The position numbers and the translations under genes were made by a program. Below the pieces are notes generated by a model that was not told the DNA's origin, did not search any database, and saw only the letters and a program-made list of their open reading frames with translations. Positions 37,103 through 61,712 of a stretch of 64,000 nt of DNA are shown piece by piece. The stretch is taken from NCBI RefSeq assembly GCF_013410115.1, contig NZ_JACCCV010000001.1, positions 2,604,001-2,668,000 on the forward strand. Reading direction: 5' to 3'. Origin of the DNA: Tunturiibacter gelidiferens (GTDB lineage: Bacteria; Acidobacteriota; Terriglobia; Terriglobales; Acidobacteriaceae). Each line of letters opens with the position of its first letter. Position 1 is the stretch's first letter.

Positions 37103-37133
37103 GCAACTGTTCGACAATCGGATGGAGCGACGA

Positions 37134-45121: not shown

Positions 45122-48100
45122 TTGATCAGGCGATTCCATCCCGTTCGAGTGGAGCGTGACCCTCACGCCACGCCGACAGTGTGTCTTCCGCGGGGTGTGG
45201 GTCTGGTTTCGGTCGCGAGCCAGTTTCGTCGTAGAAGCGGACTGATTCTGTCTGTTCTTCTTTATGTGGCTGCGGGGATGTTTGCTTGCGGGGCAATGGC
45301 GCAGACATCCTCTCCGCTCAGGCTTTCCGAGTATCAGAAGCAGGACTGGCAGATAGAGGATGGACTACCTGACAATAATGTCCGAATGATTGCTCAACGG
45401 CCGGATGGACTACTCTTGCTTGCTACCGGATCGGGGCTCGCCACCTTCGACGGACAGCACTTTCACAGTCTTCCCATCGTGGTCGGTGGCCTCGCCGACA
45501 ATGAAGCTATCAATGCGGTGCTTCCCGAGGGCAACGACGATCTCTGGATTGGAACGGACGGCAGCGGGATACTGCACCGTACAGCATCCGGAACTGTTGC
45601 GATCAGCGAACAGGCCGGATTTCATAATGAACGCATTCGAACGTTTTATCGGGATGCACAAGGGGTGCTATGGATCGCTACTCAGAACGGGATCGAGCGA
45701 TTCGTTAGCAATCACCTCGAGGCGGTTGCGGGTGCCGGAATGATCTCCGGCGATATCACGACGCCCTTCGCCGAGGATGGCCATGGAGGGATGTTCTTCA
45801 TTACGTCTTCGGGGCTTTATCACTGGCAAGGCGGTAAGGTCCAACGCTATCGGGTTGGAACGTCGGCGTCTGATACTGAGGTCGCGGTGTATCGCGATGC
45901 GGCACAGCGGATCTGGGTGGGAACGATGACTCACCTGATGCAACTTGTTCCACGCAAGTGCGCATTATGCGGCGAGGCGCCTGCATTTGATCCCGTGGTG
46001 CGTGCAACCCTCGCAAGTCCGATCACTACCCTGCTCGGCGACGCCACCGCCGGGAATCTCTGGATGGGAACCCGCCACGATGGTGTGTGGCGTTTTGGTG
46101 CAGACGGCCTCTCGCATTGGGGCTCGCGCAATGGACTACCCGATGACGCCATCCGAACTCTGTTTATGGATGACGAACAGAACCTTTGGGTCGGGATGCT
46201 CACCGGCGGCCTGAGCCGATGGCACAAAGGAGCACTCGCGCCGTTTGGAGAGCCTGAGGGTTTCCACGCCTCCTACGCCGCCAACGTGTTTGCCGACAGC
46301 CGCGGCGATTTATGGTTTGGCACATGGGGAAATGGTTTATTTCGGCGGCACAACGGCCAGCTTATTCCTTCTACTCCTCCAGGCATGCCGATCACTACGG
46401 CGATCCGAGCGCTTGCCGAAGACCAGAAGGGGCGAATGTGGATAGGAACGTGGTTCAACGGAATTTACAGCTACGACGGCCACTCGTATCGTCACTATCT
46501 GCTTGGCAACGAGTCGCCAGGCAATGCTGTCAGCTCTATTCTTGCGGACAGTCACGGAGGGCTGTGGGTAGGGACTTACACAGGGGTTTTGTACTTTCCG
46601 CAGGGACAGCCGGATCGACAAAATCGTAGGCAGTTCGTCGAGACGAAGCTGATTACATGCCTGATCGAGGATCGGGACGGCTCCATTCTCGTTGGGACGA
46701 GTAGTGGCCTCTACAGTGTTCGAGACGGAACGGTATCGGCGGTCTCCGGCCTTCCTCATCCGTATGTGCTCTCGCTGGTGCTCGATAGCGGAGGGTATCT
46801 CTGGGCGGGCACCAAGGCGGGCGGAATCGTTGCGATTAGACAGGATCATGCGGTTGCGCTGCCTGGCAACGTCAACGCGCCCACGCAACCGGTAAGCACG
46901 GCGACGGAGGATCAGGACGGCCACCTGTGGCTTGGTACCTATCGAGGAATTGTGCGCCTCACCGTAGCTGAGCTGCATGCTGTGATCGAGGGACGACAGC
47001 ATCCGTTATCAGTTGTGATACTGGGGAAGGCCGATGGGATGCGGTCCTCAGAGTGTGGTGGGCCTTCGAAGCCGTCTTCTACGCTTCAGCCTGATGGTAC
47101 TCTCTGGTTTGCGACGACCAAGAGCTTTGTGCATACAACGGATGTGGCGGAGAGGCTAGGCACGATAAGTCCGGCCGCGACAATCACGGGCTGGACACTG
47201 TCGAGCGATCCCGACGCCGCTGATACCGATACGAGGACGGGCGATTCGCGGATCGAATTGGAAGCGGGGCAGCCCGACATTCTGTTCTTCTTCAACGCGA
47301 AGCTGCTCTCCAATCCGGCGCATGTGGAGTATCGCTATCGTCTCGCTGGGTATGACGCGGAGTGGACGAATACTCGCGCTCATGCTGCCCGCTACCGCCG
47401 CCTGCCGCCGGGGACCTATAGGTTTGAGGTGCAGGCCCGGGGCGGCGGAGAAGACTGGACCTCTCGGGTGAGCTCGGTTGAGGTGAAACAGCGGCCTTAT
47501 TTCTACCAGACCTGGTACTTCGCTGCTGGCCTTTGCCTTGTCGTTCTTGCTCTTGCGACGCAATTGTTTCGACGTCGTCTCCAGTTGATGAAAGGGCGGA
47601 TCGGTATCGTACTGGAAGAGCGGAATCGCATCTCCCGCGAGTGCCACGACACGTTGATGGCTGGGTTTGCCGCGATCTCATGGCAGCTGGAGGCCACGTC
47701 GAAGTTATTTCGGGACAGCGATTTGAGTTCTACTCCTGCCGCTCAGTCGTGTGAACTGGCTCGAAGCATGGTCTCTCACTGCCAGGCGGAGGCGCGGCGA
47801 ATCATCTGGGATCTGCGGGATGCAGACGAGATGACCAATCTGTTGTCACGAGCGCTCAGTCGCGTCCTTGAAGCTAATCCTTTACAGGAGAACTTCAAGA
47901 CGACTTTTGAGGTTGAAGGTGAGGAGCAGCCGCTTGCTCCGGGTTGCGTCCATCATCTGGTTTGTATTGGTCAGGAGGCGGTCTCGAATGCGATTCGTCA
48001 CGCCAACCCTTCACGGATTCTCATTCTGCTGAGGTATGAAGCAGATTCGCTAAGCCTCTCTATCTATGATGACGGACACGGTTTTCAAGGCTCGGAGGAG

Positions 48101-48286
48101 AACAGCTCGCGCCGCGGCCACTTCGGCATTCCCGTGATGGAGGAGCGAGCGCGCAAGATCGGCGGCACGTTCCGGCTGCAGACCTCAGCCGAGGCCGGTA
48201 CGGAGGTGACCGTGAAGGTATCCTTCAACGCAGCACGGCAATCGCTAAGGCAGGAGCATCATGTTATACGTTGGATAGGGATATGA
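45122..48286 (+). CDS. Propeller-type sensor histidine kinase (Reg_prop/Y_Y_Y/HisKA_3)
   Basis: 1054 residues from a TTG at 45122 with only a distant GAGG; the true start may be a few codons further in. A signal or membrane segment (LILSVLLYVAAGMFACGAMA) precedes about 12 propeller repeats (LWIGTDGSGIL, WVGMLTGGLSRW, LWFGTWGNGLF), then a Y_Y_Y domain (YRYRLAGYDAEW), a transmembrane helix (YFAAGLCLVVLALAT), the dimerisation/phospho-His helix (RNRISRECHDTLMAG, His near 840) and a C-terminal ATPase domain (GQEAVSNAIRHA, DDGHGF, GIPVMEERA). It senses a periplasmic ligand, typically an oligomer, and phosphorylates the adjacent regulator. Confidence 0.92.
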   Translation: MIRRFHPVRVERDPHATPTVCLPRGVGLVSVASQFRRRSGLILSVLLYVAAGMFACGAMAQTSSPLRLSEYQKQDWQIEDGLPDNNVRMIAQRPDGLLLLATGSGLATFDGQHFHSLPIVVGGLADNEAINAVLPEGNDDLWIGTDGSGILHRTASGTVAISEQAGFHNERIRTFYRDAQGVLWIATQNGIERFVSNHLEAVAGAGMISGDITTPFAEDGHGGMFFITSSGLYHWQGGKVQRYRVGTSASDTEVAVYRDAAQRIWVGTMTHLMQLVPRKCALCGEAPAFDPVVRATLASPITTLLGDATAGNLWMGTRHDGVWRFGADGLSHWGSRNGLPDDAIRTLFMDDEQNLWVGMLTGGLSRWHKGALAPFGEPEGFHASYAANVFADSRGDLWFGTWGNGLFRRHNGQLIPSTPPGMPITTAIRALAEDQKGRMWIGTWFNGIYSYDGHSYRHYLLGNESPGNAVSSILADSHGGLWVGTYTGVLYFPQGQPDRQNRRQFVETKLITCLIEDRDGSILVGTSSGLYSVRDGTVSAVSGLPHPYVLSLVLDSGGYLWAGTKAGGIVAIRQDHAVALPGNVNAPTQPVSTATEDQDGHLWLGTYRGIVRLTVAELHAVIEGRQHPLSVVILGKADGMRSSECGGPSKPSSTLQPDGTLWFATTKSFVHTTDVAERLGTISPAATITGWTLSSDPDAADTDTRTGDSRIELEAGQPDILFFFNAKLLSNPAHVEYRYRLAGYDAEWTNTRAHAARYRRLPPGTYRFEVQARGGGEDWTSRVSSVEVKQRPYFYQTWYFAAGLCLVVLALATQLFRRRLQLMKGRIGIVLEERNRISRECHDTLMAGFAAISWQLEATSKLFRDSDLSSTPAAQSCELARSMVSHCQAEARRIIWDLRDADEMTNLLSRALSRVLEANPLQENFKTTFEVEGEEQPLAPGCVHHLVCIGQEAVSNAIRHANPSRILILLRYEADSLSLSIYDDGHGFQGSEENSSRRGHFGIPVMEERARKIGGTFRLQTSAEAGTEVTVKVSFNAARQSLRQEHHVIRWIGI

Positions 48287-48906
48287 AACAGATTCGTGTG
48301 TTGCTAATCGAAGACCACTTTCTTGCGCGCATGGCGCTGCACTCGGTGCTCTCGGGTCATTCGCAGATTCAGATTATTGGTGAAGCCAGCGACGGTGAGA
48401 CAGGTGTTGAGATGTATCGAAGTCTGCGTCCGGATGTGGTGGTGCTCGATCTACGCTTGCCACGGCTCAGCGGCTTCGAGGTGATCGATCAAATTCGCAA
48501 AGAGTATTCGTCCGCTCGCATTGTTGTGCTTTCCAACTATCAGGGTAGCGAGGATATCTATCGTGCGGTGCGAAGCGGCGCGATGGCATATCTGAATAAA
48601 GATGCGAGTGGAGAGCAGCTTTTGAACGCTATCCAGAATGTGGATCGAGGATTAAGGTATCTTCCTCATCTCGCGCTCGACTGCCTGGCCGAGCGCACGC
48701 CGGTTCTGGAGTTGACGCCACGCGAGAGCGAGGTGCTCGCCGGAATTACGCGAGGACTTAGTAACCGGGAGATCGCGGAGGATCTTCATATCGCTGAGAA
48801 GACGGTGAGAATTCATGTCAGCTCACTGCTCGATAAGATGGGTGCACGCGACCGGACTCAGGCGACGATTTACGCCTTTCAGCGCGGACTTGTCCACCTG
48901 AACTGA
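48283..48906 (+). CDS. NarL/FixJ-type response regulator
   Basis: 207 residues from the ATG that overlaps the kinase stop (ATGA), so the pair is translationally coupled. The receiver domain has the acidic pair in LLIEDHF, the phospho-acceptor Asp in VVVLDLRLP (near 56), a Ser in VVLSNYQ and the Lys in LNKDAS. The LuxR-type helix-turn-helix follows (LTPRESEVLAGITRGLSNRE, then KTVRIHVSSLLDKM). It should bind DNA as a dimer when phosphorylated. The 8-2-8 palindrome 6 bp downstream, ahead of the TonB receptor gene, is a good candidate site. Confidence 0.93.
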   Translation: MKQIRVLLIEDHFLARMALHSVLSGHSQIQIIGEASDGETGVEMYRSLRPDVVVLDLRLPRLSGFEVIDQIRKEYSSARIVVLSNYQGSEDIYRAVRSGAMAYLNKDASGEQLLNAIQNVDRGLRYLPHLALDCLAERTPVLELTPRESEVLAGITRGLSNREIAEDLHIAEKTVRIHVSSLLDKMGARDRTQATIYAFQRGLVHLN

Positions 48907-48911
48907 CGAGC

Positions 48912-48929
48912 CTAGGACATTTGTCCTAG
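48912..48929. promoter_or_regulatory. 8-2-8 palindrome, candidate response-regulator site
   Basis: CTAGGACA-TT-TGTCCTAG, a perfect inverted repeat with 2-bp spacing. NarL-type regulators bind paired heptamers 2 bp apart, which this fits. It lies between the regulator stop and the TonB receptor start (about 185 bp upstream). No T-run follows, so it does not look like a terminator. Confidence 0.55.
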
Positions 48930-49114
48930 CTAAAGACATGGCAACAGCCTAATGACAATCAGATGACCCCGTAATCAAATCCCTGTTAATCCTCAGCCTG
49001 GGATCTGAATCGCTGTACCTGCCGAATCAGCCGACGGTAGGCTACCGCCGTCGCTCTGCAAGCCAGGCGAGTGGACTGTGAATAAATCAACGGACGTCTT
49101 TCGGAGGTCATGCT

Positions 49115-52100
49115 GTGAACAAAGTTCTTCTACGAATTTGTTTGATGTGTCTTCTTGGTGTTTCGGGCGCATCCGCGCAGATCGCTAACAACACAGCTCT
49201 GGTGGGGACGGTCGTTGATGCGAGCGGAAGCTCAGTAGCGGGTGCTCAGGTTACCGCCACAGAAGAGGCCACGCAGCTGAAGTACACGGCGACCACCAAC
49301 TCACAGGGCTACTACTCCATTACCTTCATCAAGAGCGGCGTCTATGATCTGTCCGTCGAAAAGGGTGGATTCAAGAAGGAACAGACGGTGGGTGTTCCCG
49401 TATCGGTCGACCTCGCAGTGCGTACGGACTTTGATCTGAAGATCGGGTCCACAACGGAGACCATTACCATCACCGCCAGTACGGCTCCGCTCTCCACCGA
49501 CGACGCAAACCTCGGAGAGACGTTTTCGACCAAACAGGTTGAGGATCTTCCGGTTCAGGGGCACAATGCGCTCGAGGTGGCTGCGCTCGCCTCGAACGTC
49601 ACGATCGGATCGAAGACCAGCTACAGTGGAAACCCTCCCGGCGTCGACTTTATTGGAGCGGGACAACGTGAGACGCAGAACGATCTGACTCTCGATGGCG
49701 TCTCGATCATGAACAACTTGGGGAACGTCACTCCCGCGCGGCCCGGCACGGATATGATCTCCGAGGTTCAGATGCAGAGCGGAAACTATCCTGCACAGTA
49801 TGGCGCCTACCTCGGCGTGCACATCAATCTCGTCAGCAAGGTTGGTACTAACGACTTTCATGGTGTGGTCTACGACTATGTTAAAAATACGGCTCTGAAC
49901 GCGCACAATTTCCTTGATTCTCCTACGCAGAAGAAGGCGCCTCTGAACTACAACCAATATGGGTTTACCTTGGGTGGGCCTGTCTGGATTCCGAAGCTTT
50001 ACAACGGCCGCAATAAGACCTTCTTTTTTGGTTCCTACGAGAAGCTAAATCAAAAAGCACAGAGCGCTGGTACTTCTACTGTTATGACAGCAGCCCAGGA
50101 AGGCGGCGACTTCTCGGCTTTAGGCACCCTGAATCCTAACGGCGGTTGTACGGGCATCTGTCTTAAAGACCCCTATAACAATAATGCTTACTACCCGAAC
50201 AATCAGATTCCGGTCAGCGAACTGTCGACTCCTGCAGCTTTGATCGCAAAAAAATACGAGGCTTATGTGCCGCTGCCGAACGCCGCTGGGATAAACAACA
50301 ACCTCAACAATGTCTACTTCCCGAACAACCTGTTTATCGCGCAGACGCTGGAGCGCGTCGATGAGAACATCGGAGAGCGGGTGCGGATCTTCGTGCGCTA
50401 CCACTGGCAGAACCTAACCTATGCCAATGGAAATCAAGTTCCAGTAGCCGGCGGATACGGGCCTGGCAATAGCCGAAATCTGGCTGTCGGATACTCCCAC
50501 GTCATTACACCTCGACTCGTCAACGACTTTCACTTCGGCATCAACAAGTTTCTGACCGACTCTCTGAACTACTGGTACGTGAACAACCTTAAGGGAGCAG
50601 GCACCTCTCTCGGTATCCCCGGATTCAACTACGACACCACAACGGGAAACCTTGGAATCCCCAATGTTCAGCTGACTAGCGCAAGCGGTATGAACATTGG
50701 AAACAATGGAACGAACTGGTTTCAGGATGACCGTACGCTCGACGGATATGACCAAGTCAGCTACACCCGCGGCAAGCACAACATTATGGCTGGTATAGAA
50801 CTTCGGAAGCTGACCTTAGGCCGCGCTGCAACCAACGAATCCCTCGGCTTATTTACCTTCAATGGAACACTGACGGGTGACAGCCGGGCCGACTTTGCGC
50901 TGGGCCTGGCGGCGACTGATCAGACGCCTGTAAGTACTATCAAGGGTTCGGTGGCCGAATGGCGCGACGGATTTTTCGTCCTGGACAACTGGCAGGCTAC
51001 CTCGAAGCTGACCATAAACTATGGCCTGCGTTACGACCTGCCGACCGTCCCTTACAGTCTGAACGGCTACGCACGTTTGCTGAACCAAACGGAGACCGCG
51101 CTGATTCCGCCAACGAGTGCGCTGACTCCGAATACCTTCACTCCTACTCCGGGATTCAAACTCGCAAGCGCAACCCACGACAACTGGGGACCGCGTCTGG
51201 GAATCGCATATCGCGCGACCGACAAGACTGTGATTAGAGGGGGAGTGGGTTTCTACTACAACGCCAACCAGCTCAACAGCTTTACCTTGCTCAGCAGCAA
51301 CTACCCGCTGGGAGCCTTCATTGGATACAGCACGACAGCAGCAAATCTTCTGTCCTTCACAAATCCAACTCCTGGGGCGGGCAGTGCTTCTCCAATTGCC
51401 GGTACTCCTGGCACCTTTCAGAGCGCAGTTCAGTATGATCCGAAGAACAAAACGCAGCGCAGTTATCAGTGGAACGTCAGCGTTGGGCAGGAGTTATGGA
51501 GGGGGGCGGCTTTTGAGCTTCAGTATCTGGGGTCTCACTCTCTGCATTTGGATATCAGCGACTACAGAAATCTGCCCACGAATCCTAGTGGAAACGGGAT
51601 TGCATCGTATGCGACTAAGCCCACGCTCAACTCTTTGCGGCCAAACCCGCTCTTTGGTTCGATACGCGATCTTAACAACATCGCCTACTCCCACTACAAC
51701 GGTTTGACCACAATCTTCCGTCAGCGGCTCTTGTATGGTCTATCGGGACAGGCGAGCTATACATGGTCTCACGACCTGGACATTGGCTCAGACTCGAACG
51801 GCGGCGGAACAGCGTCGCAGCCATTCAACATCAAAGCCGACTATGGCAACTCCAACTGGGATATCCGTCATCGCTTCGTCGGCGTATTGACTTACGATCT
51901 GCCGTCCTTCCAAGGAAGAAACCGCTGGGTCCGGGAGACGCTTGGCGGCTGGCAGCTCAATGACATCGTCAATCTGCAGACGGGCATGCCCTTCAACGTG
52001 GTGCTGGGCTATAACAGCGCGGGGTTCGATCAAGGTACGACGCGGCCGAGTTTTGTCCATCAGGCCAGTGCTCACTGCAGTCTGCACAATTACATTACGG

Positions 52101-52513
52101 GCAACAAAACGTCGTGCATCGATGCAACAGCTTACACGCTTCCTGTAGCTCCACAAACGCTGAATTCCGCCGGAGCCATCGTTGCTTACAACTACGCGTT
52201 CGGAAACACCTCAAGAAATACCCTTCATGGACCTGGCTTCTCGTATGACAATCTGTCGCTCTTCAAAGATTTCGGGCTGCGTGAGCGGATGAAGATTCAG
52301 CTTCGTGCAGAGGCACTGAACGTGTTCAACCACCCGAGTGCGGCGAATCCGAACTCTTCCAACGGAAGCGGGAATCCGACGCTCAACGCTGCGTCTCAAT
52401 CGAGTACTGCCGTGAGTACTAGTGGATTCGGTCAAGTTATCGGGGTCCAGACACTTCCCGGTGAGTTGAGTGGAGCTCGTTCGCTGCAACTAGCAGGTAA
52501 GTTCATCTTTTAG
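49115..52513 (+). CDS. Oar-like TonB-dependent receptor, exported-enzyme locus
   Basis: 1132 residues from the GTG at 49115, set by GGAGG 7 nt upstream. A signal peptide (LLRICLMCLLGVSGASAQ) precedes a regulatory carboxypeptidase-like fold (LVGTVVDASGSSVAGAQV), the plug (LPVQGHNALEVAALASNV, LDGVSIMNN) and a large beta-barrel ending in aromatic GKFIF. It would import a substrate the size of an oligomer across the outer membrane. It follows the two-component pair and precedes five exported enzymes, so it is probably the uptake step for their substrate. Confidence 0.9.
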   Translation: MNKVLLRICLMCLLGVSGASAQIANNTALVGTVVDASGSSVAGAQVTATEEATQLKYTATTNSQGYYSITFIKSGVYDLSVEKGGFKKEQTVGVPVSVDLAVRTDFDLKIGSTTETITITASTAPLSTDDANLGETFSTKQVEDLPVQGHNALEVAALASNVTIGSKTSYSGNPPGVDFIGAGQRETQNDLTLDGVSIMNNLGNVTPARPGTDMISEVQMQSGNYPAQYGAYLGVHINLVSKVGTNDFHGVVYDYVKNTALNAHNFLDSPTQKKAPLNYNQYGFTLGGPVWIPKLYNGRNKTFFFGSYEKLNQKAQSAGTSTVMTAAQEGGDFSALGTLNPNGGCTGICLKDPYNNNAYYPNNQIPVSELSTPAALIAKKYEAYVPLPNAAGINNNLNNVYFPNNLFIAQTLERVDENIGERVRIFVRYHWQNLTYANGNQVPVAGGYGPGNSRNLAVGYSHVITPRLVNDFHFGINKFLTDSLNYWYVNNLKGAGTSLGIPGFNYDTTTGNLGIPNVQLTSASGMNIGNNGTNWFQDDRTLDGYDQVSYTRGKHNIMAGIELRKLTLGRAATNESLGLFTFNGTLTGDSRADFALGLAATDQTPVSTIKGSVAEWRDGFFVLDNWQATSKLTINYGLRYDLPTVPYSLNGYARLLNQTETALIPPTSALTPNTFTPTPGFKLASATHDNWGPRLGIAYRATDKTVIRGGVGFYYNANQLNSFTLLSSNYPLGAFIGYSTTAANLLSFTNPTPGAGSASPIAGTPGTFQSAVQYDPKNKTQRSYQWNVSVGQELWRGAAFELQYLGSHSLHLDISDYRNLPTNPSGNGIASYATKPTLNSLRPNPLFGSIRDLNNIAYSHYNGLTTIFRQRLLYGLSGQASYTWSHDLDIGSDSNGGGTASQPFNIKADYGNSNWDIRHRFVGVLTYDLPSFQGRNRWVRETLGGWQLNDIVNLQTGMPFNVVLGYNSAGFDQGTTRPSFVHQASAHCSLHNYITGNKTSCIDATAYTLPVAPQTLNSAGAIVAYNYAFGNTSRNTLHGPGFSYDNLSLFKDFGLRERMKIQLRAEALNVFNHPSAANPNSSNGSGNPTLNAASQSSTAVSTSGFGQVIGVQTLPGELSGARSLQLAGKFIF

Positions 52514-52529
52514 CGGCCTGTTCGCTTCG

Positions 52530-52551
52530 GGCGGCGGCCGGTAGTGCCGCC
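52530..52551. terminator. GC-rich hairpin after the TonB receptor (weak)
   Basis: GGCGGC and GCCGCC arms, loop of 10 nt, 17 bp after the receptor stop. No T-run, so read-through into the downstream operon is likely. Confidence 0.3.
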
Positions 52552-52654
52552 GTCTGCTGCACGAAGTTCATCGAAGGAAGCGCCGGAAACCTGGAAAGAT
52601 CGGATCACAGTTGAGATACGAAGCCTATTATTTTGAGGAGGAGAGTTTTCTATC

Positions 52655-53437
52655 ATGACCTCGAACAAGACCAGTTGGATTCGTCCCATCACCGGTACGG
52701 TTGCGGCCGTTTTTCTTTGTTGTACGGTGCTTACCCTTATGCAGAAGGTGAACGCCGACGCGCAGAAGACCTCAGCAGAATATGCCGCAGACCCGGCGGC
52801 TATGATCGATGCGTATCGTCATGTCGAAGCTGCTTCTGTTTCCGACGCGATCGAACAGCTGCTGCATGAAAAGCGGTATATGTCGCATCGCATGCAGGCA
52901 GTGTTTCCCACGAAGTTTGCCGGTGCGGCGCTTACCGTCAAGCTGACTAAACAGGAGAACCACGACCCCGCAGCGTTGACCGGGATGCTTCAGGCGATCG
53001 ACTCCGGCAGCGCTGGATCCGTGTATGTCATGCAGGTAGAAGACGGGGCAGATATCGCCGGCATGGGTGGACTTATGGGTACCGCCATGTTTGCCAGGGG
53101 GTTCGCCGGCGCGGTCGTCGATGGAGGGGTGCGCGATCTACCGCAGCTCAAGCGCATCGGCTTTCCAGTCTATTCCACGGGACCGGTGCCCTCCACCTCG
53201 GTGAGTCATTATCGCTTCGGAGGAGTGAACGTTCCCATCCTTTGCGATGGCGTCGCGGTTGCTGCCAACGATATCGTTGTTGCTGATCAGGATGGCGTCG
53301 TGGTGGTGCCGCGTGAGCATGCCGCTGACATTCTTGTTCTCGCACAGAAGCTGGATAACAGCGAACACTCCATGTATCCCTTTATTGAAAAGTTTCACTC
53401 CATTACGGAGGCTGTCCGCCAATTTGGCAGAATCTAA
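52655..53437 (+). CDS. RraA-like protein with export signal (HMG/oxaloacetate aldolase fold)
   Basis: 260 residues. A hydrophobic N-terminus (ITGTVAAVFLCCTVLTLM) suggests a Sec signal or anchor. The core has GGLMGTAMFARGFAGAVVDG followed by GVRD (the Arg-Asp of the active site), then VAANDIVVADQDGVVVVP. RraA-fold proteins are metal-dependent 4-hydroxy-4-methyl-2-oxoglutarate aldolases/oxaloacetate decarboxylases or RNase E inhibitors; outside the cytoplasm a lyase role is far more likely. A GAGGAGGAG stands 9-11 nt upstream. First gene of the exported operon, 141 bp after the TonB receptor and 21 bp before the first PLP enzyme. Confidence 0.8.
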   Translation: MTSNKTSWIRPITGTVAAVFLCCTVLTLMQKVNADAQKTSAEYAADPAAMIDAYRHVEAASVSDAIEQLLHEKRYMSHRMQAVFPTKFAGAALTVKLTKQENHDPAALTGMLQAIDSGSAGSVYVMQVEDGADIAGMGGLMGTAMFARGFAGAVVDGGVRDLPQLKRIGFPVYSTGPVPSTSVSHYRFGGVNVPILCDGVAVAANDIVVADQDGVVVVPREHAADILVLAQKLDNSEHSMYPFIEKFHSITEAVRQFGRI

Positions 53438-53458
53438 TAATGCGACCTTCACAGAACG

Positions 53459-54763
53459 ATGTTGCTACTGGAGGCTTTGTTGACGCTCTCTGCACAGGAT
53501 TCACACCTTTTTACGCGAAGACGATTTCTTGGCTGGTCACAGGCCGCACTGGCAGTTCTGGGTGCGGCATCAATCCTGCCGTCGAAATCCAACGCTCTCT
53601 CAACCACTTCTGAGGCGCAATCTGCGGATGACTACTACGCAAAGCTCGGCGTCGAGAAGATCATCAACGCCGCCGGAACCTACACCTATCTCACTGCTGC
53701 AGTTATGCCTCCGCAGGTGCAGCACGCTGTCGCGCAGGCGGCTCTGCATCCCGTTGTGCTGAAAGATCTGCAAAAAGCCTCGGGAGAATATATTGCCAAG
53801 CGGCTTCGATGCGAAGCAGCTCTCGTGAGTTCCGGGGCTTCTGCGGCACTCACGCTTGCAACTGCTGCCTGCATCGCCAACGCGAACGGTGTTGCCGCTA
53901 ACCTGATTCCGGAGAGTGTCGGCGGCATTAAGAATGAAGTGATTGTTCAGAAAGCGCATCGCTATGAGTACGACCACGCGATGCTGCTCTGTGGAGTGCG
54001 CATCGTCGAGGTTACAACGGTGGACGAGTACAGGCGTGCATTCTCTCCAAAGACGATCATGACGAACTTCTTCAATTCAGCCGAAGGGGGTGAGATCGAT
54101 CGCCGGACCTGGCTTGAGGTTGCGCATCAATATAACGTGCCTTGCCATATGGATGCTGCAGCAGATATGCCTCCGATTGAGAATCTGTGGAAGTACACGG
54201 GCATGGGCTATGACCTTGTCTGTTTCTCCGGCGGGAAGGGAATACGCGGTCCACAAAATGCTGGGCTGCTACTCGGCAAAAAGCATCTTATCGATTTGGC
54301 AATGGAGAGCAACAACCCAAACTCAGACGCTGTGGGCCGCGGCATGAAGGTTGCCAAGGAGCAGATCGTCGGCATGGTCGCTGCGGTGGACTGGCTGCTT
54401 GAGCAGAACGACGAGACGGACCAGGCCGAGTATGCGCGCCGTGCCGATGTGATCGTTCGCGAGGTGAAGGACATTCCCACAATGAAGACGGAGGTCTTCG
54501 TGCCTGAAATCGCCAACCATGTGCCGCATCTGATGCTCGCGTACGATCCGCAGGTTGTTGGCATCACACCAAAGCAGGTCCAGGAGCGGCTTCGCGCACA
54601 GCGTCCTCGGATTGAACTCAACCCTGCGACCGGTTCATCTGGCCGTTTTGGCTCTCACTCCAACGAAAACACTATCGTCGTCGGAACCTGGATGCTGCAG
54701 CCTGGTGAGGCCGAGATTGTTGGCCGCCAGCTTCGTGTAGTCCTCTCTCACCCAAACGTCTGA
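53459..54763 (+). CDS. Tat-exported SelA-like PLP-dependent enzyme (copy 1)
   Basis: 434 residues. The N-terminus carries a twin-arginine signal (TRRRFLGWSQAALAVLGAAS). The body is the SelA/DgaE-type fold: GVEKIINAAGTYTYLTAAVM, ALVSSGASAALTLATAA, HMDAAADMPP (PLP Asp) and CFSGGKGIRGPQNAG (PLP Lys). Cytoplasmic relatives include selenocysteine synthase and D-glucosaminate-6-phosphate ammonia-lyase; family members act on amino acids or amino sugars by elimination. A Tat signal fits, because PLP would be inserted before export. The ATG at 53459 has no ribosome site; a TTG at 53480 sits 5 nt after GGAGG and may be the true start. Confidence 0.82.
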   Translation: MLLLEALLTLSAQDSHLFTRRRFLGWSQAALAVLGAASILPSKSNALSTTSEAQSADDYYAKLGVEKIINAAGTYTYLTAAVMPPQVQHAVAQAALHPVVLKDLQKASGEYIAKRLRCEAALVSSGASAALTLATAACIANANGVAANLIPESVGGIKNEVIVQKAHRYEYDHAMLLCGVRIVEVTTVDEYRRAFSPKTIMTNFFNSAEGGEIDRRTWLEVAHQYNVPCHMDAAADMPPIENLWKYTGMGYDLVCFSGGKGIRGPQNAGLLLGKKHLIDLAMESNNPNSDAVGRGMKVAKEQIVGMVAAVDWLLEQNDETDQAEYARRADVIVREVKDIPTMKTEVFVPEIANHVPHLMLAYDPQVVGITPKQVQERLRAQRPRIELNPATGSSGRFGSHSNENTIVVGTWMLQPGEAEIVGRQLRVVLSHPNV

Positions 54764-54810
54764 ACATTACGCTACATTCGATCAGCCCAACAACAGAAAA
54801 GGAGTCAGCC

Positions 54811-55284
54811 ATGGAAAAGCAGTCCAGAAGAGGTCTTCTCAAAAACGCTGCCAAAGCCGCCGTCATTGCAACAGGAGGCGCGGCTCTTGCGGGGACGGCG
54901 AAGGCACAGGTAACCGGCAAGCTCGAGAAGAAATCCTATCCAGCCAAACCAGCTTCAGAACCAGCTCAGCTGTTCTCAAGCGCCGTTTCGTACGGCAACC
55001 TTCTTTTTCTTGCGGGAGTCGGAGCGCACTTTCAAGGAACAATTGAAGAACACACGAAACATGTCCTTGATGAACTTGAGAAGAATCTGACCGCAGCGGG
55101 TTCTTCGATGGAGAAGGTCCTAAAAGTCAACGTGTATCTCAACGACATCAACGACTGGGCAAAGATGAACACCGTTTATGGGGGCCGCTGGGGCAAGATT
55201 CCTCCGGTACGTACTACGATTGCGCCCGCCGGCGGCATTCCGGGAAATTCGCTTGTAGAAATCGACCTCATTGCCTACATCTGA
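54811..55284 (+). CDS. Tat-exported RidA-like (YjgF/UK114) protein
   Basis: 157 residues, AGGAG 6 nt before the ATG. SRRGLLKNAAKAAVIATGG is a twin-arginine-type signal. The mature part is a RidA domain with LFLAGVGAHF, KVNVYLNDINDWAKMN and the conserved Arg in PPVRTT (near 134) that binds the imine carboxylate. RidA speeds hydrolysis of the enamine/imine intermediates released by PLP ammonia-lyases. Placing it between two SelA-like PLP enzymes, all exported, suggests it clears their products in the periplasm. Confidence 0.87.
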   Translation: MEKQSRRGLLKNAAKAAVIATGGAALAGTAKAQVTGKLEKKSYPAKPASEPAQLFSSAVSYGNLLFLAGVGAHFQGTIEEHTKHVLDELEKNLTAAGSSMEKVLKVNVYLNDINDWAKMNTVYGGRWGKIPPVRTTIAPAGGIPGNSLVEIDLIAYI

Positions 55285-55352
55285 TCTTTGATCTAGGTCA
55301 TCAGGGCACGTTCACAAACACGTCTTACTTCAGGAAAAGGGAACGGGTTCCT

Positions 55353-56960
55353 ATGTCACTCTTTCGCACGACACGGTGGTCACGGCGGGAAGTCCTCAAG
55401 CAGTCTGGCATGCTCTCTGCTTTTGGAGCTGTGACTTCAATATCACCTCTGGCTGCAACGGCGCAGCAAAAGGCATCTGCTCAACGGACTATTACGCATG
55501 AAGGCACAGAGACCGACAATCTCTTTACCCGCATCGGCGTACGTCCCATCGTGAACGGCCGTGGCACTTTCACCATTATCAGTGGCTCACGATCTATGCC
55601 TGAGGTGAAACAGGCGATGTACGATGCATCGTTCTACTTCGTTCATCTCGACGAGCTTATGGATGCTGTCGGCAAAGAGCTGGGGCAGCTGACAGGAGCG
55701 GAGTGGGGGATTGCTACGACAGGATGTGAAGCGGCCATTGCACTCGCTACGATTGCATGTATCGCTGGAACCGATCCGGAGAAGTCTCAGGCACTTCCTT
55801 ACATCAAGGCGCGCGATCAGGTCATCATTCCTAAACATTCCCGAAATCCTTACGACTTCGGCGTTCGCATGACGGGAGTAGAGATCGTTGAAGTGAATTC
55901 CGCAGAGCAGCTTCGCAGCAAGCTTTCAGAGCGAACTGCGATGATCTATATCCTATCCGGACCTGATGCAGAGCAGGGCCCGCTGAGTATCCCCAATATC
56001 TGCACAATGGCAATGGAAAAGGGCGTTCCCGTCTTCGTGGATGCCGCCGCTGAGGAGCCGCTTGTTCCTAACATCCATATTCAGCATGGTGCTTCGCTAG
56101 TCGGCTACTCGGGAGGCAAGTGTATGCGCGGACCACAATCTTCCGGAATGCTTATCGGACAGAAAGATCTGTGCCGGGCGGCTTACTTTCAGGCAGCGCC
56201 ACATCATAACTACGGTCGTGCGTATAAGTGCAGCAAGGAAGAAGTGATGGGCCTCCTGGCTGCGGTGCGCCAATGGTACAAACGCGACCATGCGGCAGAA
56301 CAACAGGAGTGGCTCTCCTGGCTTCAGTACATCGAGAGACGAGTGAAGGGGCTTCCTTCGGTGACGACCGAGTACCTGCAGCCGGAAGATCTCTCTAACC
56401 GCTCGCCGCGTCTCCGAATAAAGTGGGACGCAAACGTTTTGAAGATTACGGGTACTGAGCTTGTTGCGCGTCTTGATGCGGGCACACCAAGAATTCTTGT
56501 CGATGGCGGCACCGGCACTCGTCCTGCTCACATGGCCAGTTCGGTCACTATCATGCCGTACATGATGGATCCCGGAGAAGACCACATCATCGCGGATGCG
56601 ATCTACGAAGGCCTTACCAAACCTGGCCACTATGAAGATCCCGTGATTCCGACTGGAGCCACCGCACAAGTAAATGGGAAGTGGGCCATTGCGATTCAAT
56701 ATTCGCGTGGAGTCGGGGAGCAACACTTCGTTCTTGAACAAAGCGGAGAGACGCTTACGGGTAGACAGCAGGGTGAACTCTACAAAGCCGATCTGAAAGG
56801 TACTATTCATGCCAACCAGCTTGAGTTACACAGCAATGTGACTGTTAGCGGAAACACAATTCCGTGGGCATTTCGTGGAATGGTTGAGGGCAATACAGTC
56901 TCTGGAACTGTCAGTATGGGAGAGTACGGAGACGCAAGCTGGAAGGCTACCCGGGTCTGA
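55353..56960 (+). CDS. Tat-exported SelA-like PLP enzyme (copy 2) with C-terminal beta domain
   Basis: 535 residues. WSRREVLKQSGMLSAFGA is a Tat signal. The PLP-fold region (about 55-430) has VNGRGTFTIISGS, ATTGCEAAIALATIA, FVDAAAEEP and GYSGGKCMRGPQSSG (PLP Lys), clearly paralogous to the gene two positions upstream. The last 100 residues (from about VNGKWAIAI) form a separate beta-rich module with HFVLEQSGETLTG and SGTVSMGEYGDASW, absent from copy 1. Similar modules are, in my experience, tacked onto exported acidobacterial and planctomycete enzymes. The two copies may act as a pair or on different substrates. Confidence 0.8.
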   Translation: MSLFRTTRWSRREVLKQSGMLSAFGAVTSISPLAATAQQKASAQRTITHEGTETDNLFTRIGVRPIVNGRGTFTIISGSRSMPEVKQAMYDASFYFVHLDELMDAVGKELGQLTGAEWGIATTGCEAAIALATIACIAGTDPEKSQALPYIKARDQVIIPKHSRNPYDFGVRMTGVEIVEVNSAEQLRSKLSERTAMIYILSGPDAEQGPLSIPNICTMAMEKGVPVFVDAAAEEPLVPNIHIQHGASLVGYSGGKCMRGPQSSGMLIGQKDLCRAAYFQAAPHHNYGRAYKCSKEEVMGLLAAVRQWYKRDHAAEQQEWLSWLQYIERRVKGLPSVTTEYLQPEDLSNRSPRLRIKWDANVLKITGTELVARLDAGTPRILVDGGTGTRPAHMASSVTIMPYMMDPGEDHIIADAIYEGLTKPGHYEDPVIPTGATAQVNGKWAIAIQYSRGVGEQHFVLEQSGETLTGRQQGELYKADLKGTIHANQLELHSNVTVSGNTIPWAFRGMVEGNTVSGTVSMGEYGDASWKATRV

Positions 56961-57067
56961 CGTTTGTCTCGTCGAGCATGAAAAGCTTTCATATTCCAGC
57001 ATAGAAACCAAATGAGTATCACGCATCCAAACTTTGTCTGCGTGGTCAACGCATAGATTGGGGAGTC

Positions 57068-58414
57068 ATGAATTTGTATTTCTGGAAACAAGGTTTAGCG
57101 CTTTCCTGTCTCGCATTAATCCTCACGACAAGCGACAGCTTATCGGCTCAACAGGCTTTGCCGGCCTACGATCTGCTACTGAGCAGCGGTCATGTCCTCG
57201 ATGACAAGAACCACCTCGACGCCATTATGGACGTCGCAATCAAAGACGGTCGAGTTGCAAAGGTTGCCGCGCACATTCCCGCAACCGATGCGCTAAAGAC
57301 CATTGACGTTAAGGGACTGTATGTCACCCCCGGGCTCATTGACCTTCACGTTCATGTCTACGCGGGCACGGGTGAGCGTAACTCCTATGCTGGCGACAAC
57401 AGCGTTCCGCCGGATGGCTTCACCTTCCGTGTGGGCGTAACGACCGTGGTCGACGCGGGTTGCTCTGGCTGGCGTAACTTCGAAGACTTCAAGGACCGCA
57501 TCATCGATCGTTCGAAGACTAGAGTCTTTGCGATGCTCAATATCGTCGGTTCAGGAATGCGCGGGGGTAAGTACGAACAGAACACCGCTGACATGGACGG
57601 AGTGGCAACCGCGGCGATGGCTCTCAAGTATCCCGACACGATTGTCGGAATCAAGACCGCACACTTTGAAGGCCCAGAATGGACGCCAGTCGAGCAGGCT
57701 GTTATCGCCGGGACCCGCGCAAACATTCCCGTTATGGTTGACTTCGGTGTCGATCGCCCAAGTCGTCCGATTCTCGATCTAATGACCCAGAAGCTTCGTC
57801 CTGGCGATATATACACCCACATGTACTCTGGCCTTCGCCATGAGCAGGATCCCGTCACGCTGGGTCCGAGCAAAGCTCTCATCGAGGGTCGCAAGCGTGG
57901 TATCTACTTCGACGTTGGCCAAGGAGGTGGCAGCTTCAAGTGGTCGCTCGCAATTCCTATGATCAAGGATGGATTTATCCCCGATTCCATTTCGACCGAT
58001 TTACACATCACCAGTATGAACGCGGCTATGAAAGACGAGCTGAACGTTGCCGATAAGATCATGGCCGTGGGCGTGCCTCTCAAGGAGGTCGTTGCGGAAA
58101 TGACCTCTCATCCTGCCCGGGAGATTCGCCATGAAGAACTCGGGAATCTCTCTGAAGGCTCGATTGCGGACATCGCGGTCCTTCGTCTGGAAAAGGGCAA
58201 GTTCGGATTTACCGACATGGAGGACAAGCGCCTCGATAGCAACCAGAAGCTTGTCTGTGAGCTCACCATCAAGGACGGAAAGATCGTGTACGACCTGAAT
58301 GGAATCAGCGCCACGCTATGGACGGTGAAGCCGGACGCTAACGAAAAAGAGGCGTACCGATGGAGCACCTTCGCACCTCGCCACGCAGAGGCAAGTACAG
58401 ACACCGAACATTAA
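57068..58414 (+). CDS. Exported amidohydrolase-superfamily enzyme (EF_0837/AHA_3915 type)
   Basis: 448 residues; GGGGAG 2 nt before the ATG, and a signal peptide (LALSCLALILTTSDSLSAQQ). The amidohydrolase motifs are TPGLIDLHVHVYAG (His94, His96), a candidate bridging Lys in VGIKTAHF (near 195), THMYSG, and STDLH for the catalytic Asp. The closest family I recognise is the EF_0837/AHA_3915 deacetylase/amidohydrolase group, whose cytoplasmic members are often encoded beside SelA-like ammonia-lyases. It would hydrolyse an amide, lactam or N-acyl bond. Last gene of the operon; a terminator overlaps its stop. Confidence 0.85.
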   Translation: MNLYFWKQGLALSCLALILTTSDSLSAQQALPAYDLLLSSGHVLDDKNHLDAIMDVAIKDGRVAKVAAHIPATDALKTIDVKGLYVTPGLIDLHVHVYAGTGERNSYAGDNSVPPDGFTFRVGVTTVVDAGCSGWRNFEDFKDRIIDRSKTRVFAMLNIVGSGMRGGKYEQNTADMDGVATAAMALKYPDTIVGIKTAHFEGPEWTPVEQAVIAGTRANIPVMVDFGVDRPSRPILDLMTQKLRPGDIYTHMYSGLRHEQDPVTLGPSKALIEGRKRGIYFDVGQGGGSFKWSLAIPMIKDGFIPDSISTDLHITSMNAAMKDELNVADKIMAVGVPLKEVVAEMTSHPAREIRHEELGNLSEGSIADIAVLRLEKGKFGFTDMEDKRLDSNQKLVCELTIKDGKIVYDLNGISATLWTVKPDANEKEAYRWSTFAPRHAEASTDTEH

Positions 58415-58430
58415 GTCTTCGGTGTCTTTT
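58400..58430 (+). terminator. Rho-independent terminator of the exported-enzyme operon
   Basis: GACACCGAA and TTCGGTGTC, 9-bp stem with a 9-nt loop, followed at once by TTTT. It spans the stop codon of the amidohydrolase gene (58414). Confidence 0.8.
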
Positions 58431-58683: not shown

Positions 58684-61350
58684 TTAGGGTGGAAGTATTA
58701 GCGTATTTTGCACGCTGAAGGCGGCGGTTTTTACAAGACGGCTGTCAGCAGGTTGAGCTCCGCCTACCGCAACAACATAACTACCAGGAACAACAGCTCG
58801 ATTGCCCTTATCGTCTACTTGGGAAAGGATGCGACAATCAAGAGTAAAAGTGACATGCATCGTCTCGCCGGGTTTTAGGTGTAGGCGCGTGAAACCGGCG
58901 AGGGCAAGGTTGGGGGACACCGAGGAGTGAGGTGATATCAGATAGAGTTCCGCAACTTCGTCCCCCTCTCGAATGCCTGTGTTCTTTACATCGGCTTCAG
59001 CTGTAAGGGAGTCACCGGCCTTGAGGTTTGAACTAGAGAGCCTGAGGTTTTGGTAAGAAAAAGTGGTGTAGCTAAGGCCATACCCGAAACCATAAAGCGG
59101 TTTGCTCTTGAAGTAACGATAAGTTCGGTTGGCCATGGAATAGTCATCAAAGGCGGGCAGTTGTTCGACCCCAGCGTAGAAGGTCACGGGAAGACGCCCA
59201 CCGGGGTTGTTCTGCCCGCTTAGTGTTTCAGCAATTGCTTCCGATCCGGCTTCACCGGGGTACCAGGCTTCGAGGATGGCTTTGGCATGCTCATGAGCCC
59301 AATTTACGGAGAGAGCAGACCCGTTCATGAGAACGACCACCAGCGGCTTGCCGGTTGCCGTGAGGGCTTCCAGAAGTTCTTGCTGCGCAGCGGGAAGCTT
59401 GATGTCGGTGCGGTCTCCGCCCGAGAAACCTTCGACATGGAGAGGCATCTCTTCACCCTCAAGATTGGGAGATAAACCTACAAACGCAACAATGACTTCA
59501 GATTTCTGAGCGATAGCGACGGCTTCTTTTCGTAGATAGGAAGACTGTGGGGTCCACTCGAGTGAGAGGTCTGCGCCACGGAGGGGAGCATGATGAATGT
59601 ACTCGACCTTAAAGTCATGTGGATCGGTGTCCACGAAATTCAACCGAAAGTGCGAATCCGAATTCGAGTCACTCCCTGACAGAGAGTCACTCGCAATCAG
59701 TTCTCCATCAACAAAGATCTTAAATTGCTCATGTCCCGTGCAAGGATAGCAGTCACCAAAGTGCATAGTGAGCGCAAGGTCCCCCGTTTGAGGGGCTGTG
59801 ATGGTTCCGGTCCAGCGGACGGCAAAGCTATTGGAGGGGACGCCAGGCGTCGGTGAGGCGGAGTTCCAGTCGAAATCAATTGCTTTGTCAATACGGGTCG
59901 TTACAGGTTTGCCTTCAAAGGTGCCCCCGGAAAAGTACTCACCCTTTAGTCCGTTTTCGGTAGCTGATTTGCTGGGATGAAACACGGTGCGAGGAATAGG
60001 CAGAGGCACCTGGTCTGCGTACGGCGAGCCCTGAGCGTAGAGAATCCTTGAGTTTCTAAACTCAGCGGCGATGGCGTCCACCGGAAGTTTCGCGTCTTCG
60101 GCAATTGCGTTGTAGTTGCCTTCTATGGCCGCCAAAGAAGCCGCATTAGGTCCTACAACGGCAATTGTGCGAGTGTTCAGGTTGAGCGGTAGAAAAGAAG
60201 AGTCGTTCTTTAGTAGCACCATTGACTCCCTGGCCGCGGTTTTAGCCACTTCTTTGTGGGAGGGGGAGTTCACTTCAGAGAAGGGAATTGCAGCATAAGG
60301 AACCTTGAAAGCGTCATCGAAAAGGCCGAGGCGGTAGCGCGCAAGGAGCAGCCGCTTGAGGGAAACATCGATTTGCAATTCGCTAATGAGATGTTTTTTC
60401 AGAGCTTCGGTGAGGGCGAGATAGGTATCGCCGCAGTTTGTGTCTGTGCCGGCTTCAATGCCTGCGACAGCTGCTGCCTCCTTGCTCGGCGAGGTATGAT
60501 GTGCAGTCATTTCATAGAAGTCGTCGATGGCCCCGCAATCAGAGGTGACGAAGCCTTTGAAGGACCAGTCGTCGCGAAGAATGCTTTGGAGGAGGTACTT
60601 GTTTGCGCAGGCAGGATAGTCGTTGATCGAGTTATAGGCGCACATGATCGAAGCGGCTTTGGCTTCGGTAATGGTGGCCCGGAAGGCGGGAAGATAGGTA
60701 TCCCACAGATCGTGAGGTGAGGGATCAACGTTGGCGCTGTGACGTGTGGATTCTGGACCGCTGTGTACGGCGTAGTGCTTAGGAGTAGCGATTGCCCTCA
60801 AATAATCTGGATTATCTCCCTGTAGACCTTCGACGAACGCTACGCCCAGACGCCCGGTAAGGAAGGGATCTTCCCCGTAAGTTTCTTGGCCGCGGCCCCA
60901 CCTCGGATCGCGGAAGATATTGATATTCGGCGACCAGATAGTGAGACCGTAGTAAATGGAATGAATGTTAAGGCGTACGGCTTCGTTGTATTTAGCGCGT
61001 GCTTCGATGGATATGGCTGTTGAGATCTGGTGTATGAGTGGAGCGTCCCACGTGGCGGCCATACCGATAGCCTGAGGAAAGAGTGTGGCGTATCCGGAAC
61101 GGGCAACGCCATGAAGACCTTCACTCCAATAGTCATAGGCAGGAAGATTAAGACGTGGGATTGCTGGCGCAGTGTTGATGAGTTGAGCGACTTTCTCGTC
61201 GAGTGTCATGCGTGACACGAGGTCGTTGACTCGCTCATCGTTGGAAAGGTAGGAATCCAGATAAGGAAGCTGCTTTGACGATTGCGCGAACGAGCCAAAA
61301 GGCATAAGACTTAACACGAGAAAAAAAGCGGAGACCAAGCGCAGCCACAT
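58684..61350 (-). CDS. GH3 glycoside hydrolase with PA14 insert (beta-glucosidase/xylosidase type)
   Basis: 888 residues from the ATG at 61350 (GGAG 11 nt upstream); the frame opens 19 residues earlier at 61407. A signal peptide (FFLVLSLMPFGSFAQ) precedes the GH3 barrel: WSEGLHGVARSG, WGRGQETYGEDP, KHYAVHSGP and GFVTSDCGAID with the nucleophile Asp near 272. A PA14 module (GLKGEYFSGG onward, about 465-610) is inserted in the second domain, and a fibronectin-III-like domain ends the protein. The overall form suits beta-glucosidase or beta-xylosidase secreted enzymes. It faces the exported operon and is likely separate from it. Confidence 0.87.
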   Translation of the reverse strand: MWLRLVSAFFLVLSLMPFGSFAQSSKQLPYLDSYLSNDERVNDLVSRMTLDEKVAQLINTAPAIPRLNLPAYDYWSEGLHGVARSGYATLFPQAIGMAATWDAPLIHQISTAISIEARAKYNEAVRLNIHSIYYGLTIWSPNINIFRDPRWGRGQETYGEDPFLTGRLGVAFVEGLQGDNPDYLRAIATPKHYAVHSGPESTRHSANVDPSPHDLWDTYLPAFRATITEAKAASIMCAYNSINDYPACANKYLLQSILRDDWSFKGFVTSDCGAIDDFYEMTAHHTSPSKEAAAVAGIEAGTDTNCGDTYLALTEALKKHLISELQIDVSLKRLLLARYRLGLFDDAFKVPYAAIPFSEVNSPSHKEVAKTAARESMVLLKNDSSFLPLNLNTRTIAVVGPNAASLAAIEGNYNAIAEDAKLPVDAIAAEFRNSRILYAQGSPYADQVPLPIPRTVFHPSKSATENGLKGEYFSGGTFEGKPVTTRIDKAIDFDWNSASPTPGVPSNSFAVRWTGTITAPQTGDLALTMHFGDCYPCTGHEQFKIFVDGELIASDSLSGSDSNSDSHFRLNFVDTDPHDFKVEYIHHAPLRGADLSLEWTPQSSYLRKEAVAIAQKSEVIVAFVGLSPNLEGEEMPLHVEGFSGGDRTDIKLPAAQQELLEALTATGKPLVVVLMNGSALSVNWAHEHAKAILEAWYPGEAGSEAIAETLSGQNNPGGRLPVTFYAGVEQLPAFDDYSMANRTYRYFKSKPLYGFGYGLSYTTFSYQNLRLSSSNLKAGDSLTAEADVKNTGIREGDEVAELYLISPHSSVSPNLALAGFTRLHLKPGETMHVTFTLDCRILSQVDDKGNRAVVPGSYVVAVGGAQPADSRLVKTAAFSVQNTLILPP

Positions 61351-61712
61351 AGAACGAGTTTCTCCAAAGACATTAAGCAATCCTACCCTCTTGGTGATCG
61401 GTTCCATCCCAGTTGCTTATTCGACTGAATCCTCCATCCGTATTTCATTGGAGAACTTCCGAGCGATCATCGAGATCCCATAAGCTGCACTAAATCGATG
61501 CAATCCAATCATGATCTTTCGCTCATTCTGGGGATTACCTCCCTTGCTCCATTGTTGGATTTTGCTGTGCTTAGCTCATGCGGGAATTCGACATGTGCTC
61601 CCGCATTGAAAAGTGCAGCTTCCTTTGAAGAATGATGAAGCTATTGCGGGCCGTGCGGACGTATACTTTCCGACATCTGTTGATGCAAATGGTGTGGGTT
61701 TGGAGGCAGTTT

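Follow-up and report, generated by a model that had tools for sequence, protein, structure and literature searches.

We examined a 64,000-nucleotide stretch of the Tunturiibacter gelidiferens genome (contig NZ_JACCCV010000001.1, forward-strand positions 2,604,001 to 2,668,000; here called the window, with coordinates counted from its first base) that carries a cluster of genes for putatively exported enzymes beside a homologue of N-acetyl-D-hexosamine oxidase. The host genome is 5.29 Mb, and close proteins and loci carry the names Tunturiibacter, Granulicella and Edaphobacter (Acidobacteriota). An earlier sequence-only reading had described, at 48271-58430, a propeller sensor pair, a TonB receptor and five enzymes in a row. 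Family matches bear out this row on the plus strand behind the receptor and regulator (RraA-, SelA-, RidA- and SelA-like proteins, then an amidohydrolase). The sensor pair is present too, with a kinase gene that starts outside that range, and the unit is larger than described, taking in a major facilitator superfamily (MFS) transporter, the oxidase and a lactonase. The genes are as follows, with FAD for flavin adenine dinucleotide, PLP for pyridoxal 5'-phosphate and Tat for twin-arginine translocation.

40747-41865, minus strand: lactonase, a 7-bladed propeller with the Tat-type motif NRRHFLR (PF10282, 134 bits)
41891-43426, minus strand: FAD/BBE oxidase, N-acetyl-D-hexosamine oxidase homologue without a signal peptide (7zzk, 686 bits)
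43662-45050, plus strand: MFS transporter of the sugar-acid (D-galactonate-like) type (TIGR00893, 210.8 bits, below the cut-off of 395)
45122-48286, plus strand: sensor kinase with Reg_prop propeller, Y_Y_Y, HisKA_3 and HATPase domains (family matches)
48271-48906, plus strand: NarL/LuxR-type response regulator (family matches)
49115-52513, plus strand: TonB-dependent-type outer-membrane receptor, CarboxypepD_reg plus OMP barrel (family matches)
52655-53437, plus strand: RraA-like protein with a hydrophobic leader (PF03737, 122.8 bits)
53459-54763, plus strand: SelA1, a DgaE-family PLP ammonia-lyase-like enzyme with a Tat signal (TIGR01437, 160.1 bits)
54811-55284, plus strand: RidA-family enamine/imine deaminase-like protein with a Tat signal (PF01042, 74.8 bits)
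55353-56960, plus strand: SelA2, a second DgaE-family PLP enzyme with a Tat signal (TIGR01437, 148.0 bits)
57068-58414, plus strand: amidohydrolase/deacetylase with a hydrophobic leader, candidate aldonate deacetylase (PRK09237, 407.6 bits)

The gaps between the five enzyme genes, from the RraA-like gene to the amidohydrolase, are 21, 47, 68 and 107 bases, and the kinase and response regulator open reading frames (ORFs) overlap by 16 bases. On the other flank, the oxidase is divergent from the MFS gene, 235 bases from its listed start, and the lactonase lies 25 bases behind the oxidase. The listed TTG start of the MFS gene is probably too early; a copy of this gene is found in 14 of the 20 genus loci L063-L082, and several of the other loci end before its position. 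The claim that the unit ends at a single terminator did not hold up, with terminator-like sites not enriched (17 versus 16.2 in shuffles). Sigma-70 promoter counts are likewise at shuffle level, and we left both kinds of signal out of the argument.

The sequence-only reading also placed all five enzymes outside the cytoplasm, the two PLP enzymes by the Tat route. We called export signals by motif and hydrophobicity pattern tests on relatives from loci L063-L182 with at least 45% identity (at least 30% for the lactonase and receptor) and coverage of at least half of the query; counts are per locus and not per independent genome, and some loci are one genome reached by two routes. A twin arginine lies within the first 35 residues in 24/24 SelA1, 45/45 RidA and 36/36 SelA2 relatives (21, 40 and 32 distinct sequences, respectively). 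The strict pattern RRx[FLVIMAW] plus a hydrophobic stretch is found in 23/24, 44/45 and 35/36 of these, compared to a rough background, spurious ORFs included, of 21/254 other ORFs of at least 200 residues in L063-L102. Hydrophobic leaders occur in 35/35 RraA, 29/31 amidohydrolase and 31/32 receptor relatives. In the window proteins, alignments to solved homologues begin only at residues 58 and 54 for the two SelA-like proteins, 42 for the RraA-like protein, 48 for RidA and 34 for the amidohydrolase. Judged by motif, the N-termini of the five enzymes look exported and not cytoplasmic, as had been claimed. Export by Tat would suit PLP and flavin proteins if their cofactors are loaded in the cytoplasm. 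The lactonase has the twin arginine in 43/58 relatives and the strict pattern in 24/58; many of the twin-arginine misses look like start-site errors. The window lactonase itself has a weak hydrophobic stretch and fails the strict test.

The oxidase bears on the class of substrate. It matches 7zzk, 'N-acetyl-D-hexosamine oxidase', over its full length (residues 3-511, E 3.4e-205). This enzyme was an orphan activity until its sequence was assigned in 2021, and the characterised protein from Ralstonia solanacearum (EC 1.1.3.29) acts on N-acetylglucosamine (GlcNAc, KM 0.26 mM) and N-acetylgalactosamine (GalNAc, 0.32 mM), oxidising C1 to the lactone (PMC9299179). The two FAD-anchoring residues named in that paper are shared by the window protein: His64 and Cys124 are invariant in 8 acidobacterial oxidase sequences, and pattern searches for the bicovalent FAD motifs found the Cys in 85/85 and the His in 81/85 oxidase sequences. 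Orthologues in named Ralstonia genomes are about 57% identical to the window oxidase. The discoverers call the enzyme's biological function unclear, place its closest homologues in Acidobacteriales and Burkholderiales, and give no pathway for it (PMC9299179); the window copy, in contrast, has as neighbours a lactonase and the genes of a candidate pathway for aldonates. The best solved relative of that lactonase is 3scy (53 bits), and the periplasmic gluconolactonase PpgL (6igb, 39 bits) is also among them. The linked oxidase homologue and lactonase point to N-acetylhexosamines as the likely substrate, with oxidation at C1.

Both PLP enzymes have as their best solved relative 7lc0, a D-glucosaminate-6-phosphate ammonia lyase (91 bits for SelA1 and 112 bits for SelA2). 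The Lys of FSGGK is invariant in 26 SelA1 sequences and that of YSGGK in 36 SelA2 sequences; the SGGK Lys of SelA2 aligns with 7lc0, and we take the Lys of the SGGK/SGAK motif to be the DgaE active-site lysine. DgaE, a cytoplasmic enzyme, takes its name from a phosphorylated substrate, whereas SelA1 and SelA2 carry Tat motifs and score far under the family cut-off. We rejected a true selenocysteine synthase for either protein, with 26-32 bits to the TIGR00474 selA model versus 148-160 bits to TIGR01437. In a search for relatives, 7765 of 8000 scored candidates matched, and many of the 120 listed are named 'L-seryl-tRNA(Ser) seleniumtransferase'. SelA2 differs from DgaE in having about 105 extra C-terminal residues, beyond the DgaE-aligned part, with a conserved Gly/Trp pattern and no Pfam match. 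In two loci (L071, 18.2 kb; L080, 14.5 kb), the module contains or adjoins one more DgaE-like gene besides SelA1 and SelA2, with 31-33% identity to SelA1.

In the RidA-like protein, the Arg of P-x-R-x-T, presumably the Rid-family catalytic arginine, is invariant in 42 sequences, and the score to TIGR00004 is 64.8 bits, below the cut-off of 106. Second twin-arginine RidA copies, about 44-55% identical, lie away from the main cluster in loci L095-L102; they add little because none of these 8 loci has another core gene (in L095 an oxidase lies about 6 kb off).

In another reading, the unit would act on an amino sugar of peptidoglycan (N-acetylmuramic acid, MurNAc, or anhydro forms), with a PLP enzyme that would eliminate lactate, not water, from the oxidised acid. 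Two distinct PLP enzymes would fit two eliminations or two substrates, and the sequences are compatible with a 3-O-substituted aldonate. However, we know of no family in the unit that is lactate- or muramic-specific, and the substrate table of the characterised oxidase has GlcNAc, GalNAc, N-acetylmannosamine (ManNAc), chitobiose and free sugars and does not list MurNAc (PMC9299179). We consider this substrate very unlikely. An equally improbable alternative is that the enzymes work not on sugar acids but on N-acyl D-amino acids or on D-hydroxyamino acids, such as those of the D-serine type. It draws on OngC, the PLP enzyme of the Ong pathway discussed below, which also deaminates D-serine and D-threonine (PMC9537276), but is at odds with the linked genes, which encode a lactonase, an MFS transporter of the sugar-acid type and a homologue of N-acetylhexosamine oxidase.

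The amidohydrolase exceeds the PRK09237 cut-off of 371 bits and matches TIGR03583 (EF_0837) below cut-off. Its best solved chains are 8wzy, 8je0, 2ogj and 2ics (119-139 bits), with D-aminoacylase at 29-30 bits. Its presumed site retains His-x-His, Lys, His and Asp. For the RraA-like protein, a role as an RNase-E regulator is unlikely because of the hydrophobic leader in all 35 relatives. The RraA-family enzyme FlDet, a 2-keto-3-deoxy-hexarate dehydratase/decarboxylase, offers a precedent by family for action on a 2-keto-3-deoxy sugar acid, although it belongs to an alginate pathway (PMC8563752).

We next consider conservation of the linkage. An oxidase profile was scanned against one genome per species (84,980 species), and the best 80 of 302 confirmed stretches were kept: 56 acidobacterial loci (one, L181, named just 'bacterium') and 24 from Burkholderiales. 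A lactonase directly follows the oxidase, that is, matches within 400 bases, in 54/80 loci (33/56 acidobacterial and 21/24 Burkholderiales). Within about 10 kb of the oxidase, 24 of the 56 acidobacterial loci have at least one of the five core genes and 17 have two or more. The oxidase is divergent from the MFS gene in the window, L103, L104 and L113, and ahead of it in L127; it is convergent with the amidohydrolase in L108-L112 and with SelA2 in L171 and L173, and lies behind SelA2 in L116 and L124 and behind RidA in L115, L162 and L165. Our genus search covered 62 genomes, including that of the window, at E 1e-60 for the oxidase and amidohydrolase and E 1e-30 for DgaE-like genes. The oxidase is found in 28 genomes, and the amidohydrolase and DgaE-like genes in 30 each, with all 28 falling within both sets of 30; the other 32 genomes have no match at these thresholds. 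SelA1 proper (at least 60% identity) is present in 27 of the 62, all with the oxidase, and one genome (G177) has the oxidase without SelA1. The search of related genomes that the sequence-only reading had proposed thus found its genes together.

Starting from the observed gene content, signal motifs, conserved linkage and oxidase family, we think that the unit probably encodes an exported pathway that breaks down N-acetylhexosamines (GlcNAc and/or GalNAc) by oxidation and without phosphorylation. From those observations we infer the individual reactions and the sequence in which they run, where oxidation takes place, what the RraA-like protein does and why two PLP enzymes are present. Sugars, as monomers or oligomers, would enter through the receptor, and the unit would be turned on by the propeller kinase and regulator. 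The FAD oxidase would convert an N-acetylhexosamine to its C1 lactone, which the Tat-type lactonase would open to the N-acetyl-hexosaminate. Removal of acetate by the amidohydrolase would give the free 2-amino-2-deoxy aldonate, from which one or both DgaE-like enzymes would eliminate the 3-hydroxyl; the two may serve gluco and galacto epimers. RidA would then hydrolyse the enamine/imine to ammonia and a 2-keto-3-deoxy sugar acid, on which, or on a by-product, the RraA-like protein may work. The MFS transporter would import the product, and a row of host genes for KduI (above cut-off), a KDG-kinase-like protein (below cut-offs; KDG, 2-keto-3-deoxygluconate) and Eda, the KDPG (2-keto-3-deoxy-6-phosphogluconate) aldolase (above cut-off), could finish the route. 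A periplasmic pathway for an amide- or amine-bearing nutrient, as first suggested, is still the best reading; the nutrient had been left open, and the oxidase and lactonase point to N-acetylhexosamines.

Several findings weigh against this pathway. Among the enzymes, SelA1 and SelA2 fall below the TIGR01437 cut-off of 385.3 bits. The strand-5 His of the amidohydrolase, seen in 8wzy, 2ogj and 2ics and presumably a metal ligand, is Asp (PVMVDFG) in 28/28 sequences. In the RraA-like protein, the first Asp of D-X20-R-D, which we take to be the motif of the RraA-fold HMG/CHA (4-hydroxy-4-methyl-2-oxoglutarate/4-carboxy-4-hydroxy-2-oxoadipate) aldolase, is Gly in all 120 listed homologues of 7817 matched, while R-D is kept; Arg-123 is described as important in that aldolase (PMC5065237). 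Because of the Asp-for-His and Gly-for-Asp changes, it would be unsafe to take the amidohydrolase for a classical deacetylase or the RraA-like protein for a classical aldolase. The oxidase shows a hydrophobic leader in 0/84 relatives, and an in-frame stop lies immediately upstream of its ORF in the window. The first step may therefore be cytoplasmic, but if the oxidase stays in the cytoplasm, export of the lactonase has no explanation. One tentative solution, which we regard as possible but doubtful, is that the oxidase travels as a Tat hitchhiker of the lactonase, so that the whole phosphate-free path to the 2-keto-3-deoxy acid, perhaps to pyruvate, would be periplasmic and would be the oxidase's missing role. 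Such co-export is our boldest guess; the lactonase, mostly with a twin arginine, directly follows the signal-less oxidase in 54/80 loci, as given above.

The distribution of the genes adds further points of this kind. No core gene (50-60% identity thresholds) lies within 10 kb, or before the contig end, in 32/56 acidobacterial oxidase loci, and 0/24 Burkholderiales loci have one within about 10 kb. The Fisher value for oxidase co-occurrence in the 62 genus genomes (1e-15) overstates independence because these genomes are related. Of 149 genomes drawn from across the phylum, 5 have the oxidase (E 1e-50), and these 5 belong to the window's family; one genome, G123, has it with no SelA1 match, and six genomes of other families (G023, G038, G045, G056, G111, G148) have SelA1 matches of 43-47% identity and no oxidase. 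The exported PLP set is thus broader than its tie to the oxidase, and a phylum-wide dependence on the oxidase, which we had considered, finds no support in this draw.

These six genomes favour a different explanation, in which the exported set (amidohydrolase, SelA1, SelA2, RidA, RraA-like protein and MFS transporter) would use external 2-amino aldonates, N-acetylated or free, such as those from a C1-oxidising lytic polysaccharide monooxygenase (LPMO) acting on chitin, and the oxidase-lactonase pair would be a later add-on or a source of peroxide. In two genus genomes (G091, G224), SelA1 and the oxidase are missing but the amidohydrolase and a SelA2-like gene are present, and a 19.5-kb locus of G091 (L066) has the set without SelA1, oxidase and lactonase. 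Extracellular peroxide is also one role proposed for the oxidase by its discoverers (PMC9299179). However, the oxidase and SelA1 are jointly present or absent in 61/62 genus genomes, and the two are colinear in L115, L116, L124, L162 and L165. We consider use of external aldonates unlikely, if less so than the muramic and D-amino acid alternatives, and prefer the oxidative N-acetylhexosamine pathway.

That pathway would probably not be the only route in its host. NagA (309 bits, above cut-off) is encoded near a gene for an SIS-type deaminase-like protein (125 bits, below cut-off), so the host probably has an ordinary GlcNAc route too, which also weighs against our proposal; the NagB model TIGR00502 found no match in the host genome.

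The sequence-only reading knew of no described system with this set, and this stands in part. The same chemistry is known from the cytoplasmic Ong pathway for chitin oxidation of Pseudoalteromonas prydzensis ACAM 620, in which the GlcNAc aldonate is deacetylated and a PLP enzyme then deaminates it to KDG and ammonia (PMC9537276, PMC12017989). The Ong system also has outer-membrane receptors, a KDG kinase downstream and a RidA protein, OngD, that is essential there with an unknown role (PMC9537276); the window RidA has a Tat motif. The differences lie in place and family. OngB and OngC are predicted to be cytoplasmic, whereas the window enzymes have twin-arginine or hydrophobic leaders by motif evidence; OngB is D-aminoacylase-like and OngC a fold-type III PLP enzyme, compared to a PRK09237-type deacetylase and DgaE/SelA-like proteins here. 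The Ong aldonate arises via LPMO and OngA, in place of the proposed oxidase and lactonase, and an RpiR-type repressor and SSS transporter stand where the window has a kinase/regulator pair and MFS transporter (PMC9537276). Because its enzymes belong to other families, the window unit is not an Ong member.

Oxidase loci from Variovorax were also compared. In 8 of 9, the oxidase and lactonase have within about 7 kb a D-aminoacylase-type deacylase, a regulator of the RpiR/SIS kind and a PLP enzyme of the D-serine-dehydratase type (in the ninth the contig ends), and 6 of those 8 have two ATP-binding cassette (ABC) transporter genes (e.g. L120, 12839-16544). These are the same kinds of genes as OngB, OngR and OngC, and the loci are possibly a cytoplasmic version of the pathway. 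The deacylase is not a proven OngB, as it scores 456 bits to D-aminoacylase and 474 bits to 9g5m versus 407 bits to PpOngB, and because it is nearer D-aminoacylase the support for our pathway is suggestive at most. Such neighbours are found in 0/15 other Burkholderiales oxidase loci, which again counts against the proposal. Achromobacter piechaudii is the sole betaproteobacterium named with a complete Ong pathway (PMC9537276), and a genome of that species (L150) has the oxidase and lactonase.

What is already known, then, is the oxidase and DgaE as enzymes, and Ong as a chemical relative. Within the open-licence literature and our chosen search words, no paper on the combination of oxidase and DgaE and its export was found, and the combination and export are new within that search. 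A direct and testable role for the oxidase is suggested by its conserved linkage to a lactonase and, within the genus, to a set of exported deacetylase, ammonia-lyase and RidA proteins. If the proposal is correct, a pathway known inside cells would be placed outside the cytoplasm, with two PLP enzymes and RidA in the periplasm and amino-sugar nitrogen freed there as ammonia, and a soil lineage would be able to use GlcNAc/GalNAc by two routes, this one and that of NagA. Exported relatives that at present often bear the name of seleniumtransferase would gain a function, and there would be a setting to test what RidA does, a question that the Ong work left open (PMC9537276).

In Terriglobus roseus (L175, 9983-15495), the genes after the oxidase encode a glycoside hydrolase family 29 (GH29) fucosidase, a DgaE-like twin-arginine protein and a protein that resembles a lactonase and weakly matches a Tat signal; this set hints that the sugars may come from fucosylated glycans. 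In the window, GH95, GH36 and GH3 genes lie near the module at 34599-39434 and 58684-61407, consistent with glycan use, their linkage to the module being putative. The window also contains an ORF of 2743 residues at 2834-11065.

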